A stretch of 64,000 nucleotides of DNA from positions 1 through 64,000 of the forward strand of contig MWOU01000108.1 of assembly GCA_002025975.1 (NCBI GenBank), given 5' to 3'. Position 1 is the first letter of the stretch. The number at the start of each line of letters is the position of its first letter. Position numbers and translations under genes: made by a program. Below are positions 36,390 to 59,011 of the stretch, piece after piece. The notes beneath the pieces are model-generated. The model did no database searches. It saw only the letters and a list, made by a program, of their open reading frames with translations, and was not told the origin of the DNA. This DNA comes from Prochlorococcus sp. HOT208_60m_813B04 (GTDB lineage Bacteria > Cyanobacteriota > Cyanobacteriia > PCC-6307 > Cyanobiaceae).

Positions 36390-37250
36390 ATGAAAATTAT
36401 AACATTTGAAAAATATCAAGGTAACGGAAATGATTTCGTAATAATAGATTCTAGAAGAAATGAATTATATAAAAATTACAAGACAAATAAAATATTTGAT
36501 ATAAAAAAAATTTGCAACAGGCAATTTGGTGTTGGAGCAGATGGTGTGATTTTTATAGAAGAACCTAATGAAGATAATTATGCAAAAATGATAATTTTTA
36601 ATTCTGATGGTTCTGAAGCACAAATGTGTGGAAACGGAATTAGGTGTTTAGTTGAGTATCTCCACGTAAATGATTCAATGAATAATAAAAATATAGAATA
36701 TAAAATTGAGACTAAAGCAGGTTTAAAAATTGCAAAATATATAAATGATGAAATTACAGTAAAAATGGGATTTCCAATTTTAGAATGTCAAAATATTCCA
36801 ACAACAATTGAAAAAAAAATAAATTCAATTCCTTCACACGAATTTATTGAGAAAGATTTTAATAATATGGGTTATGCCGTTGGAATGGGAAATCCTCATT
36901 TAATATTCTTTGTAAAAGACATAGAGTCAATTGTTCTTTCCAGACTTGGTCCTATATTTGAAAAAAATGAATTATTTCCTGAAAAAACTAATGTGCATTT
37001 TTGTCAAATTTTAAATAGAGATAATATCAAAGTAAAAGTATGGGAAAGGGGTGCAGGACCAACCTTAGCTTGTGGAACAGGTGCCTGTGCTATCCATGTG
37101 GCAGCTTATAAATTAGGCCTTTGTAATTCACAAACCATAGTAACCTTACCAGGAGGTAATCTTAAAATTGATTGGTCAAAAGACGATTGTGAAGTAATGA
37201 TGACCGGTAATGCTAAAAAGGTTTTCTCAGGATCAATGTTAGTAAATTAA
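36390..37250 (+). CDS. dapF: Diaminopimelate epimerase
   Basis: KYQGNGNDFVIID, GSEAQMCGNGIRC, GAGPTLACGTGACA. Confidence 0.97.
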   Translation: MKIITFEKYQGNGNDFVIIDSRRNELYKNYKTNKIFDIKKICNRQFGVGADGVIFIEEPNEDNYAKMIIFNSDGSEAQMCGNGIRCLVEYLHVNDSMNNKNIEYKIETKAGLKIAKYINDEITVKMGFPILECQNIPTTIEKKINSIPSHEFIEKDFNNMGYAVGMGNPHLIFFVKDIESIVLSRLGPIFEKNELFPEKTNVHFCQILNRDNIKVKVWERGAGPTLACGTGACAIHVAAYKLGLCNSQTIVTLPGGNLKIDWSKDDCEVMMTGNAKKVFSGSMLVN

Positions 37251-54790: not shown

Positions 54791-55801
54791 TTGAATATTC
54801 CTGATAATTCAAATACAAAAAGAATTTCAATTGATTTACCTGAAGAACTAATTTCCAGGTTTGATCAATTACGAAAAGAGTGGGGATTTAGGGCAAGAGG
54901 ACCTGTAATAGAAAAGATACTTAAAGAACTTCTTCAAGAAGATGATTTACTACCTAAGAATCAACAGCAAGAAATAGACTTTAACGAGAAGAAGAATAAT
55001 GAAAAATTAAATATTGATGAAGATACTGCATTGGTATTAATTAAATCAGACGTAAAAAAAGAAGTTAATGGAATATCATTGAATGAAAGAGTTTCAAATA
55101 ACAACCAGTATAAAGAAAAAGCCAACTCAAACATATGCCTTCCCAATTTTGTTGAAAAAAAAGTAAAGAATTTAAGAAGAAGTATTAATAGTGAAAAATT
55201 AAAAGAGAATATTAATGATATTCAAATTAATACAATTAAAGAAACTGAATTAATAAAATGTCGAATTGAGTTAATTAGTCATTGGAAAACCTTATATGGA
55301 TCAGTTCCTAATGACCATGTAGTAGAGGCTTCAATGGATTGGTTTGGAAGAGATATATGGCCAAATCTTGATGGAACTGAAAATCTACCATTTACGTGGA
55401 GTGCTGCTAATAAATTAATGTCTGAATTATGCCCATTTTGGATAAAGAAAAACCCAACCCTTGAAATTGTGTTATTAATGATTGGCGTTTTAGAAGACCC
55501 TTTTGCCACATCAGATCTAATTAATAGGATACCAACACTTATGAGAAGGTTTGTAAGTAGATTTAAGCGAAATAACAGATCAAATTCATTTGAAACATTG
55601 GACTCAACAATGACAGTACATGGTGCACTTAAATTATTGAATTTATCAACTTCCGCAGGTTCAGCTCATACGTTGCGTAAAATTAGGGAGGCCTATAAAT
55701 CAATAGCTTTAGAGACGCATCCAGATGCTGGTGGATCAACAGATCAAATGAGAAAATTAAATGAAGCGTATCAATTGCTAAAAAATCTATATAGAAACTA
55801 G
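54791..55801 (+). CDS. Ribbon-helix-helix-like N-terminus fused to C-terminal J-domain-like region
   Basis: N-term KRISIDLPEELISRFDQLRKEWGFRARGPVIEKILKELL (RHH pattern); C-term HTLRKIREAYKSIALETHPDAGGSTDQMRKLNEAYQLLKNLY (HPD J-domain signature); TTG start. Confidence 0.75.
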   Translation: MNIPDNSNTKRISIDLPEELISRFDQLRKEWGFRARGPVIEKILKELLQEDDLLPKNQQQEIDFNEKKNNEKLNIDEDTALVLIKSDVKKEVNGISLNERVSNNNQYKEKANSNICLPNFVEKKVKNLRRSINSEKLKENINDIQINTIKETELIKCRIELISHWKTLYGSVPNDHVVEASMDWFGRDIWPNLDGTENLPFTWSAANKLMSELCPFWIKKNPTLEIVLLMIGVLEDPFATSDLINRIPTLMRRFVSRFKRNNRSNSFETLDSTMTVHGALKLLNLSTSAGSAHTLRKIREAYKSIALETHPDAGGSTDQMRKLNEAYQLLKNLYRN

Positions 55802-55810
55802 TATACTTAT

Positions 55811-55858
55811 TCTCAAATAAGACTTAATATTAGTCTATTTAATAGTCTCAAATAAGAT
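55811..55858 (+). repeat. Copy 1 of ~45-bp element with 12-bp-phased AGACT/AGTCT/AGTCT boxes
   Basis: tctcaaataAGACTtaatattAGTCTatttaatAGTCTcaaataagat; boxes at 55820, 55832, 55844. Confidence 0.75.
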
Positions 55859-55942
55859 AAATGTGAAGTGAAAATAGCCGATATTCATAAATCATCTATT
55901 ACTCTAATTTATTCTATGTAAGGTAAGCATCCATTAAAAAAA

Positions 55943-55956
55943 TACTTTTAAAAGTA
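55943..55956. repeat. Perfect 14-bp palindrome TACTTTTAAAAGTA
   Basis: Read directly; lies between repeat copies 1 and 2. Confidence 0.6.
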
Positions 55957-55978
55957 AATTAGGTTATTGTATATAATT

Positions 55979-56026
55979 TCTCACATAAGACTTACTATAA
56001 GTCTACTATATAGTCTCATCATAGAA
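55979..56026 (+). repeat. Copy 2 of the 12-bp-phased element
   Basis: tctcacataAGACTtactataAGTCTactatatAGTCTcatcatagaa; boxes at 55988, 56000, 56012. Confidence 0.75.
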
Positions 56027-56191
56027 AAGTAAGATATAGTAATTTATCTTTTTAAATTAAGTATTATATCTCTACTTAATGCCTGGAAAAAATAAAAATG
56101 AAATAATAAATCAATAAATAATGTCCTTTCATTGTCCAATAAATTAATAAAGGGTAAGAAGTATTGGTATGAGGAGGTTTTTACTCTACCT

Positions 56192-56212
56192 GTACTGCCT
56201 TAAAGACAGTAC
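56192..56212 (-). repeat. Short inverted repeat (GTACTG-N9-CAGTAC) at the 3' end of the small secreted protein gene
   Basis: 6-bp perfect arms 56192-56197 / 56207-56212; no immediate U tract, so terminator function is uncertain. Confidence 0.4.
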
Positions 56213-56472
56213 TACTTAGCTTGAAGCTTTTCAATGGCAGTTTGTTTATCAATACTAGGGATATCACTTAATCCGTTAGCATCAAACCAAGGGGCACTAG
56301 CCCAATCAAATCCTTCGCCGAACGTATTATCTGGTGCAGTTATATACCAGTGACATGATGCATCTGGTATGTCAACAGCACATTTTGACCAATCATCTGA
56401 CCACTGAGGGACTTGTACCCACAACACTGAAGATAGAAGTAGAGATAGCAGATTTATCATAGTGTTTATCAT
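56212..56472 (-). CDS. Small putative secreted protein (86 aa) with two Cys in the mature part
   Basis: N-terminal hydrophobic leader MINTMINLLSLLLSSVLWVQ followed by WSDDWSKCAVDIPDASCHWYITAPDNTFGEGFDWASAPWFDANGLSDIP. Confidence 0.65.
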   Translation of the reverse strand: MINTMINLLSLLLSSVLWVQVPQWSDDWSKCAVDIPDASCHWYITAPDNTFGEGFDWASAPWFDANGLSDIPSIDKQTAIEKLQAK

Positions 56473-56505
56473 ACTACATTAATTACTTTTGTATGATTAT
56501 TAATT

Positions 56506-56553
56506 ATCTTAAATAAGAATTATATATAGACTAATTTATAGTCTTATATGAGA
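56506..56553 (-). repeat. Copy 3 of the 12-bp-phased element, inverted orientation
   Basis: Reverse complement tctcatataAGACTataaattAGTCTatatataATTCTtatttaag; boxes at 56544, 56532, 56520 on the minus strand, third box degenerate. Confidence 0.7.
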
Positions 56554-56565
56554 TTAGCAATACAA

Positions 56566-59011
56566 TTAATTCCTTAATTTAGTGTTAAAACATTTTTCAA
56601 CATTAGAAATGATATTTGAATGAATTGATGTAATGTCCGAATCCAGTAATGTTTTATCTTTATCTCTATAAGATAATCTAAATGTATAACTTATATGATC
56701 ATCTCCAAATTTAGTATCTTCAAAAACATCGAGTAAATTTACATCCTCTAAGAGATTTTTTCCTGTTTTTCTTATCTGTGATGTTATTTCGCTAATTAAA
56801 AATTTTTTACTAAAAACAAAATTTATATCCCTTTCCATTTTCGGAACAATTGGGTATTGCTTATATATTGGAATCCATTTATTTTTTCTTGTACTAGCTC
56901 CCAAGAGGCTAGATACATTTATGTTAAATAAATAAACTTTTTTTAATGACTTCTTTTCTAATATTAGTTTGGGATGTATTTCGCCAAAATAACCTGCATC
57001 TTTCCCTTCAATAACTAATTTCGCTGTTCTTCCTGGATGAAGAAAATCAATTGAATCAGTAGGTTTATCCTCAATTTTTATGTTCAAAGATAATAAAGCC
57101 TCCTTTAACTTTCCTCTGGCCTGGTAATAATTAAGATCGTTATCCTTACCAGAATTTATCCATTTTCCAAATTTATTATTACCATAAATCGCACCATTCA
57201 GAACTTCTTCTTGAATGAATTCAGTTTTTTTATAAAAAATATTTCCAATTTCAAATATATAACAACTTGCTTGTCCAGCTTTTATATTACGGTTAACTAT
57301 CTCCAGATGTTCTTTCCAGATATTATCTCTAAGACAACTTGTTTCTAATAATAAAGGATTAGAAATCTTTATAAGTTTTTCATTATCTTCAGGAACAAGA
57401 GAGTAGCTTAGTACCTCGTTAAAACCGTTTTCTATAAAACCATTTTTTACTTTTCTCAATGCCAACTGTTCTGATGATAATTTTCCAGGCTTAATTGGAT
57501 TAGGAAGTTTTAAGTCGAATCTGTCATACCCTATTAATCTCGCTATTTCTTCAATTAAATCTATTTCTCTTATTAAATCATGTGATCTATTAGGAATTAC
57601 TGCTACATCCCAGCCATATTCTTTATTCTTTAAAGTGCAACCTATGAGTTTTAATTTATCAACTATTTCATTATCAGATAAATTTTTTTTTTTCAATTTG
57701 ATCGTTAATTATTAATGGACCAAGAATTTTATGTATTCGATTTCTCCGCAATTTAATAAATATATCCTCATTACTTATTAAATTAGAAGTATTGATGATT
57801 GGTGAATTAATAGAAAAATATTCTTCTAATAGATTAATTGCCCTTGTTACTGCACTTATTGTATTTTTTGAGGAAATCCCTTTTTCATACCTGCTGCTAG
57901 ATTCAGTTCTTATACCAACCGCCTTTGAAGATTTTCTTATGGTAACTGGATTAAAAACAGCGCCTTCGAGGTAAATGGAAGAGGTAGTATTGGTTACAGA
58001 AGTTTCTAAACCGCCTATCACCCCTGCAATAGCTACCGGTTTATCACAACAAGTAATAACTGTTATTTTGTCATTTAAGTCATATTCTTTACCATCTAAG
58101 CAAATAAGGCTTTCATTATCCTTGCCTTTTCTTACAGAGAAATCTTCTGGAGAAACTTCCTTACCAATTAAGTTTGACAGTTTATGTTTATCAAACGCAT
58201 GTAAAGGTTGACCTTGTTCTAAAAGAATATAATTTGTCAAATCAACTAGAAGATTAATAGATTTTATACCTGATTTTTCTATACGGTCTTTAAGCCAAAT
58301 TGGGGATAATTTCTCACCATTTACTCCATCAATGCAGCTTATTGTATAAATGCAATTAGAATCTATAGCCTCAGGACAAAGTTTAATTCCCTTGAGTAAA
58401 TGAATATTATATTTATGGTTTAATTCTGGAAAATTTAAGGTGGATTCTAATAGGGCAGAAATTTCACGGGCTATACCTATAACAGACATTCCGTCAGGTC
58501 TATTAGCTGTAATGGCTAAATCATATATAAAATCATTTAATTGAAGCAAGTCAGACCCTGGACTGCCCAATTCATGTTTTAAGGCTAAATCTTCATCAAT
58601 GATTTCTATCCCTTCGCTAAAGTCCTCTAAACCAAGTTCCTGCAGTGAACATATCATTCCTTCACTCATGACACCTCTAATTTCACTTCTTTTAATAGTT
58701 AAATCAACAGCATTTAATTTCGCGCCGACAACAGCAACATAAACATAAATATTTGGTTTAATATTGCTCGCACCACAGATAATTTGTAAATTCTTTGAAT
58801 TACCAATATCGACTTGGCAGATTGAAAGTTTATCAGATCCTTCGTGTTTTAAAACAGATAATACCTTACCTAAAACAACTCCATTTACATTTTTTGAACA
58901 ATCTTCTAATGATTCAACCTCAAATCCACCAATAGACAATTTCTCAGAGAGATCTTCAGGAGTAGAATTAATTTCTACTAAATTATTCAGCCAATTTTGA
59001 GAAACTTTCAT
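56566..59011 (-). CDS. pheT: Phenylalanyl-tRNA synthetase beta subunit, interrupted by apparent frameshift at A11 tract
   Basis: ORFs 57674..59011 (tRNA-binding, B3/B4: MKVSQNWLNNLVEI, RPDGMSVIGIAREISALL) and 56566..57696 (RSHDLIREIDLIEEIARLIGYD, catalytic and FDX-ACB) are collinear parts of PheT joined at the T11 run 57683-57693. Confidence 0.9.

Follow-up and report, generated by a model that had tools for sequence, protein, structure and literature searches.

The sites of lambda-type tyrosine recombinases combine direct-repeat boxes with an inverted-repeat core at a fixed, helically phased distance, and dif sites of Xer systems consist of inverted arms of ~11 bp around a 6–8 bp centre; activation by FtsK is a defining trait of Xer systems of the E. 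coli type, though not of all Xer systems. The matS sites of the MatP system number about 20 and extend over hundreds of kb. How chromosomes are resolved and segregated in cyanobacteria is poorly known: dif prediction failed there, a published HMM approach having yielded no dif site for any of 5 cyanobacteria (Kono et al., PMC3025954), and a literature search retrieved no published dif site from this group, an absence that is not proof.

The stretch of Prochlorococcus DNA analysed here (64,000 nucleotides, hereafter the window) contains arrays of short, regularly spaced boxes. They are part of a conserved locus at the chromosome terminus that includes a dif-like composite site, and they carry more weight than the original prediction had given them; between them lies another conserved site, of the tyrosine-recombinase type, which that prediction had missed. 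We lean towards the view that this terminus locus holds the picocyanobacterial dif-like site, and that a terminus protein docks on the arrays, probably RHH-J, the product of the adjacent gene, which combines a weak ribbon-helix-helix (RHH) domain with a J-domain.

Phased arrays and their genomic neighbourhood

All three predicted array copies were recovered: copy 1 (55811..55858, boxes at 55820, 55832 and 55844) and copy 2 (55979..56026, boxes at 55988, 56000 and 56012) on the plus strand, and copy 3 (56507..56553, boxes at 56544, 56532 and 56520) on the minus strand, with copy 1 reading TCTCA-N-ATAAGACT-N7-AGTCT-N7-AGTCTCAAATAAGAT. The pattern originally proposed matches the window 4 times, copy 3 being counted on both strands, against 0.00 expected from 100 dinucleotide shuffles, and no other locus of the source genome, a 1.21-Mb assembly that is 65% complete, has the array. 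The exact 12-bp phasing of box starts holds in the window and in the aligned Prochlorococcus loci, where the 29 nt from first to last box are kept in 81/81 rows for copy 1, 81/81 for copy 2 and 77/81 for copy 3.

Every copy is approximately a dyad around its middle box (AGACT-N7-AGWCT-N7-AGTCT, flanked by ATAA...TTAT), so that its direction is set by two features, the middle box and one of the flanks. The middle box is AGTCT in 73/81 aligned rows for copy 1 and 70/81 for copy 2, and AGACT in 75/81 for copy 3; the opposed orientation of copies 1 and 2 relative to copy 3, as first described, is kept in the genus, but it is an orientation of nearly symmetric elements. The ATTCT box of copy 3, initially regarded as degenerate, shows no decay, since ATTCT (AGAAT on the plus strand) is retained in 67/81 rows. 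A few genomes carry a fourth copy (loci L009, L059 and L064).

Across the genus (266 genomes surveyed, 87 of them near-complete), arrays are present in 85 of the 87 near-complete genomes, and the matches listed fall at one locus, with copies about 160–185 and 520–540 bp apart. Comparison was extended to the RHH-J locus of 19 closed chromosomes from other picocyanobacterial genera and of one more genus member: the order apa–RHH-J–interval–pheT is found in nearly all 20 loci, and 27 matches to AGACT-N7-AGWCT-N7-AGTCT at ≥13/15 positions fall in the RHH-J-to-pheT interval, where dinucleotide shuffles give 0.13. At least one such site occurs in 14/20 loci, mostly of other picocyanobacterial genera, and loci with array sites range from 28% to 60% G+C. 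Flanking DNA of the 20 loci has no site at ≥13/15, nor do the 400 kb around the locus in G012, which we take to be MIT9301, contain a further one at this threshold; L112, L113 and L115 lack an array at ≥12/15. The phasing would have been dismissed as coincidental had the motif been frequent at random positions or unconserved; the array is instead restricted to a single locus and conserved in relatives.

The right border of the locus is pheT (56566..59011, minus strand), convergent with the RHH-J gene. In the window it appears as two overlapping open reading frames (57674-59011 and 56566-57696), as though an essential gene had suffered a frameshift; this is probably an assembly or amplification error.

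This neighbourhood bears on an early suggestion that the arrays bound a miniature mobile cassette as its terminal inverted repeats, with a small gene for an 86-aa protein as cargo. Copies 1 and 3 are inverted relative to each other over 60 nt at 75%, yet there is one locus per genome with the same neighbours, from RHH-J to pheT, throughout the family, arrays occur without the 86-aa gene, a second array lies inside the supposed element and nothing indicates movement. This synteny refutes the cassette, which we regard as hardly credible; with neither varied insertion sites nor varied copy number, a mobile element with terminal inverted repeats was ruled out.

The gene itself (56212..56472, minus strand) encodes a predicted secreted protein without a Pfam match and lies between copy 3 and a palindrome described below, whose last base its stop codon overlaps; it is a passenger in high-light (HL) Prochlorococcus. 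Most near-complete genomes of the genus contain a further match to the protein at another place. The gene was not found in outgroup loci L097–L115, most of which do have arrays, and the arrays are therefore not there on its account. It is accordingly rather improbable that the arrays are operators, with copy 3 controlling the 86-aa gene and copies 1 and 2 the 3′ end of RHH-J or small RNAs. In most genomes, copy 3 does lie 41 nt upstream of the start of the 86-aa gene (a refinement of the approximately 45 bp first given), a position that would overlap the -35 region of a promoter. In the outgroups, however, the arrays are downstream of RHH-J and convergent with pheT, an Rfam scan of the region gave no match, and G026 retains arrays although no RHH-J gene was found in it. 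The multi-subunit operator that had been proposed is thus weak as a general function.

The composite site and the replication terminus

Alignments revealed two further conserved blocks between the arrays. The first is a pair of GTCC(A) direct repeats 11 bp apart (56122..56138, plus strand; repeats at 56123 and 56134), kept across 81 rows and a candidate arm-type site; the second is the palindrome GTACTG-CCTTAAAGA-CAGTAC (56192..56212), a candidate dif-like crossover core whose right arm, ACAGTACTA, is present in 81/81 aligned rows. The distance from pair to palindrome is exactly 70 bp in 79/79 composites detected in L385–L464, and 69–72 bp in MED4, low-light Prochlorococcus and Synechococcus types. 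The arms measure 9–11 bp around a centre of 7–9 bp, according to the point chosen as their border, dimensions to be compared with those of dif; the near symmetry of the arms suggests one recombinase, not XerC plus XerD. Pair and palindrome together resemble the arm-plus-core site of a tyrosine recombinase.

In other genera the palindrome takes the form TTGCGTAMCTG-N9-CAGKTACGCAA, and most non-HL Cyanobiaceae have about one copy of it per genome, adjacent to RHH-J. Nearly all palindrome-bearing non-HL members of the family have this single match, extra ones being found in G328 (with one mismatch) and at a prophage of G320; elsewhere in the class, outside the family, matches are at chance-like levels only. 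A short-arm pattern, GTANCTG-N9-CAGNTAC with one mismatch, is too loose for judging genomes without RHH-J. In G024, the terminus locus is seemingly split between about 518.6 kb and 833.3 kb of contig C1 (L376 and L030), with arrays at both places and the palindrome and GTCC pair adjoining pheT, which suggests a rearrangement with its breakpoint inside the locus.

The locus lies at the replication terminus. With dnaN as origin marker, the RHH-J gene is found at 0.45–0.55 of the chromosome in 38/40 closed chromosomes, and its median deviation from the dnaN antipode (0.5) is 0.0145; the 40 genomes span 13 genera, and do not amount to 40 independent events because how far a gene lies from the origin is correlated with phylogeny. 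The control gene recA is near the origin, in HL Prochlorococcus for example at a distance of about 0.10 of the chromosome. Cumulative GC skew peaks at 1.33 Mb in G438, where the site is at 1.365 Mb, and cumulative T-A skew peaks at 0.84 Mb in G012, where the site is at 0.86 Mb; the GC skew of G012 is weak, with a peak about 100 kb from the site, and the local GC skew of the window is noisy. Among the earlier ideas, a centromere-like array linked to an RHH protein remains the best fit, but its place is the replication terminus.

Such a position, together with the conserved opposition of copies 1 and 2 to copy 3, would also be expected of a fork trap, in which protein-bound polar arrays stop replication forks so that replication ends between them. 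The near-dyad arrays would however confer slight polarity, all of them fall within 0.75 kb, with a protein-coding gene among them in HL genomes, a trap leaves the intervening arm-plus-core site unexplained, and three genomes (G006, G024 and G026) keep arrays without the candidate protein. We consider a fork trap distinctly doubtful, and prefer to regard the arrays as docking sites beside a dif-like core.

Candidate proteins and cyanophage copies

The RHH-J gene (54791..55801, plus strand) encodes 336 aa, with an N-terminal RHH-like domain at approximately residues 8–49, a conserved middle and a C-terminal J-domain that includes an HPD motif. The window protein matches DnaJ with an E-value of 1.7e-6, a match that passes the cut-off, and both the DnaJ match and the HPD motif are found in 28/28 family members. 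RHH_1 is matched in 17/28 members (best E-value 8.9e-6), with the window protein giving a weak match below the Pfam cut-off (0.033), and comparison with the NikR N-terminus yielded 6e-4; Pfam scans, which returned DnaJ and RHH_1, retrieved no MatP model. An AlphaFold2 model from an alignment of close relatives only was too poor for use (pLDDT 39.5). The gene is present in 184/196 near-complete Cyanobiaceae, and no report of the protein in picocyanobacteria was found in the literature, where absence is again not proof.

Being encoded beside the arrays at the terminus, with a weak family-wide RHH signal and an invariant HPD, RHH-J is the best candidate for the array-binding protein. Against this assignment count three genomes that keep arrays without an intact RHH-J gene: in G006 the gene has decayed through an internal deletion (L012, about 1043-1483) in the presence of arrays and the 86-aa gene, and in G024 and G026, whose arrays are intact, a profile search detected no RHH-J gene. 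Recent loss of the gene, or another binder, would explain these cases.

Picocyanobacteria have one conserved tyrosine recombinase, encoded beside ferrochelatase in MED4 (presumably our G033). Twelve members of its family are 48–85% identical to the first and share invariant catalytic-type residues, and the best solved relative, by PDB match, is an archaeal XerC-like recombinase. It was matched in 22/23 genomes, 21 of them nearly full-length and one by weak partial matches. Four members of genus g9 encode the recombinase and lack an RHH-J gene, a point against our reading of the locus. FtsK/SpoIIIE (PF01580) was detected in none of 10 picocyanobacterial genomes, in a search in which the S. elongatus control genome was likewise without a match.

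The locus also points to cyanophages bearing a host-type terminus site. A scan of IMG/VR with the degenerate palindrome identified at least 80 viral loci, whereas the HL-type palindrome gave no match there. Among the matches listed, several loci encode T7-like or other large terminases, 34/80 have a GTCCA pair with the palindrome (about 0.9 expected), and the distance between the two is mostly 62 or 72 bp, values one helical turn apart; arrays are not enriched near these palindromes, with 9 weak matches in 143 kb against 19 in 513 kb elsewhere. Phage P-SCSP1a, whose host is MED4, carries a composite with an HL-type right arm, GACAGTACTAC, and no annotated integrase; the composite, at 36718-36820 (L384), comprises three GTCCA boxes and the palindrome. 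The integrase-bearing isolates P-SCSP2, P-SSP7 and Syn5 are without the composite site, as are KBS-S-2A and MED4-184.

Integrase-bearing T7-like cyanophages integrate at tRNA-Leu (PMC8776855), so that the composite site would serve a different route or use, such as multimer resolution. Because the central bases often differ between phage and host cores, integration is no general prediction for these phages. The extra palindrome of G320 lies at the edge of an integrated T7-like cyanophage (L361; C1 752000-771999), far from the terminus locus; this phage has a phage-type RNA polymerase and a 517-aa integrase.

Both proteins and phages bear on the proposal that the arrays are extra sites of the tyrosine recombinase, or of a general bending protein that the enzyme needs, and not of RHH-J. 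Arrays persist where RHH-J has decayed or is absent, and the recombinase is present there, as such sites would predict; the phage composites are nevertheless unaccompanied by arrays, and array–core distances vary, unlike the 70-bp arm–core spacing. We judge this proposal unlikely, and retain RHH-J as the probable partner of the arrays.

We infer from these sequence features that the candidate palindrome recombines and that the conserved recombinase acts on it, a single chromosomal enzyme resolving dimers at the dif-like composite site. A terminus-marking protein, most likely the adjacently encoded RHH-J, would dock cooperatively on the arrays on both sides of this site, binding in phase at 12 bp per box. 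With no FtsK detected, the array complex may keep sister termini together, couple them to division or act as a licence for recombination; disassembly of the complex may fall to DnaK, recruited by the J-domain of RHH-J. The most specific form of this model, in which RHH-J on 12-bp-phased arrays flanks and licenses a lambda-att-like dif site served by a single recombinase in FtsK-less picocyanobacteria, and integrase-less cyanophages bear a copy of the site so as to exploit the host recombinase, is put forward tentatively, as a possibility that we would not call probable.

Comparison with known systems

The locus offers exact candidates for the site, the recombinase and the accessory protein in what are among the most abundant photosynthetic cells, which renders the question of their chromosome resolution directly testable. 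Its parts are reminiscent of several systems. Like the Tus/Ter and RTP fork traps, it has sites of opposed orientation at the terminus, but these are built of near-dyad boxes and are grouped in one cluster that encloses a site of recombination type. With the plasmid RHH centromeres (parC with ParR, ParG or omega-type proteins) it shares phased short boxes in both directions beside a gene for a protein of the RHH type, a putative one in this case; here, however, the arrays are chromosomal, located at the terminus and composed of 12-bp box repeats. As in MatP/matS, a protein that is putatively of the RHH type goes with cognate-looking sites at the terminus, whereas the arrays form one 0.75-kb cluster per genome among the matches listed, and RHH-J has a J-domain and gave no match to a MatP domain.

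The composite site parallels the attL half of a lambda-type att site in that phased direct-repeat boxes are separated from an inverted-repeat core by a fixed distance under helical constraint, but it is part of the chromosome and lies at the terminus instead of between prophage and host, and the gene for the recombinase is elsewhere on the chromosome and conserved across genera. From dif/Xer, the locus differs in its arm-like direct repeats, placed 70 bp away from the core, and in the lack of a detected FtsK in the 10 genomes searched; since dependence on FtsK was not found and recombination is itself deduced, we term the site dif-like and do not file it as a member of that class. What it has in common with dif/Xer is a palindromic site present once per chromosome at the terminus, a chromosomal tyrosine recombinase with its catalytic residues in nearly all genomes tested, and phages that carry copies of the site; to judge from sequence and setting, it is like dif/Xer that the candidate composite site most likely works.
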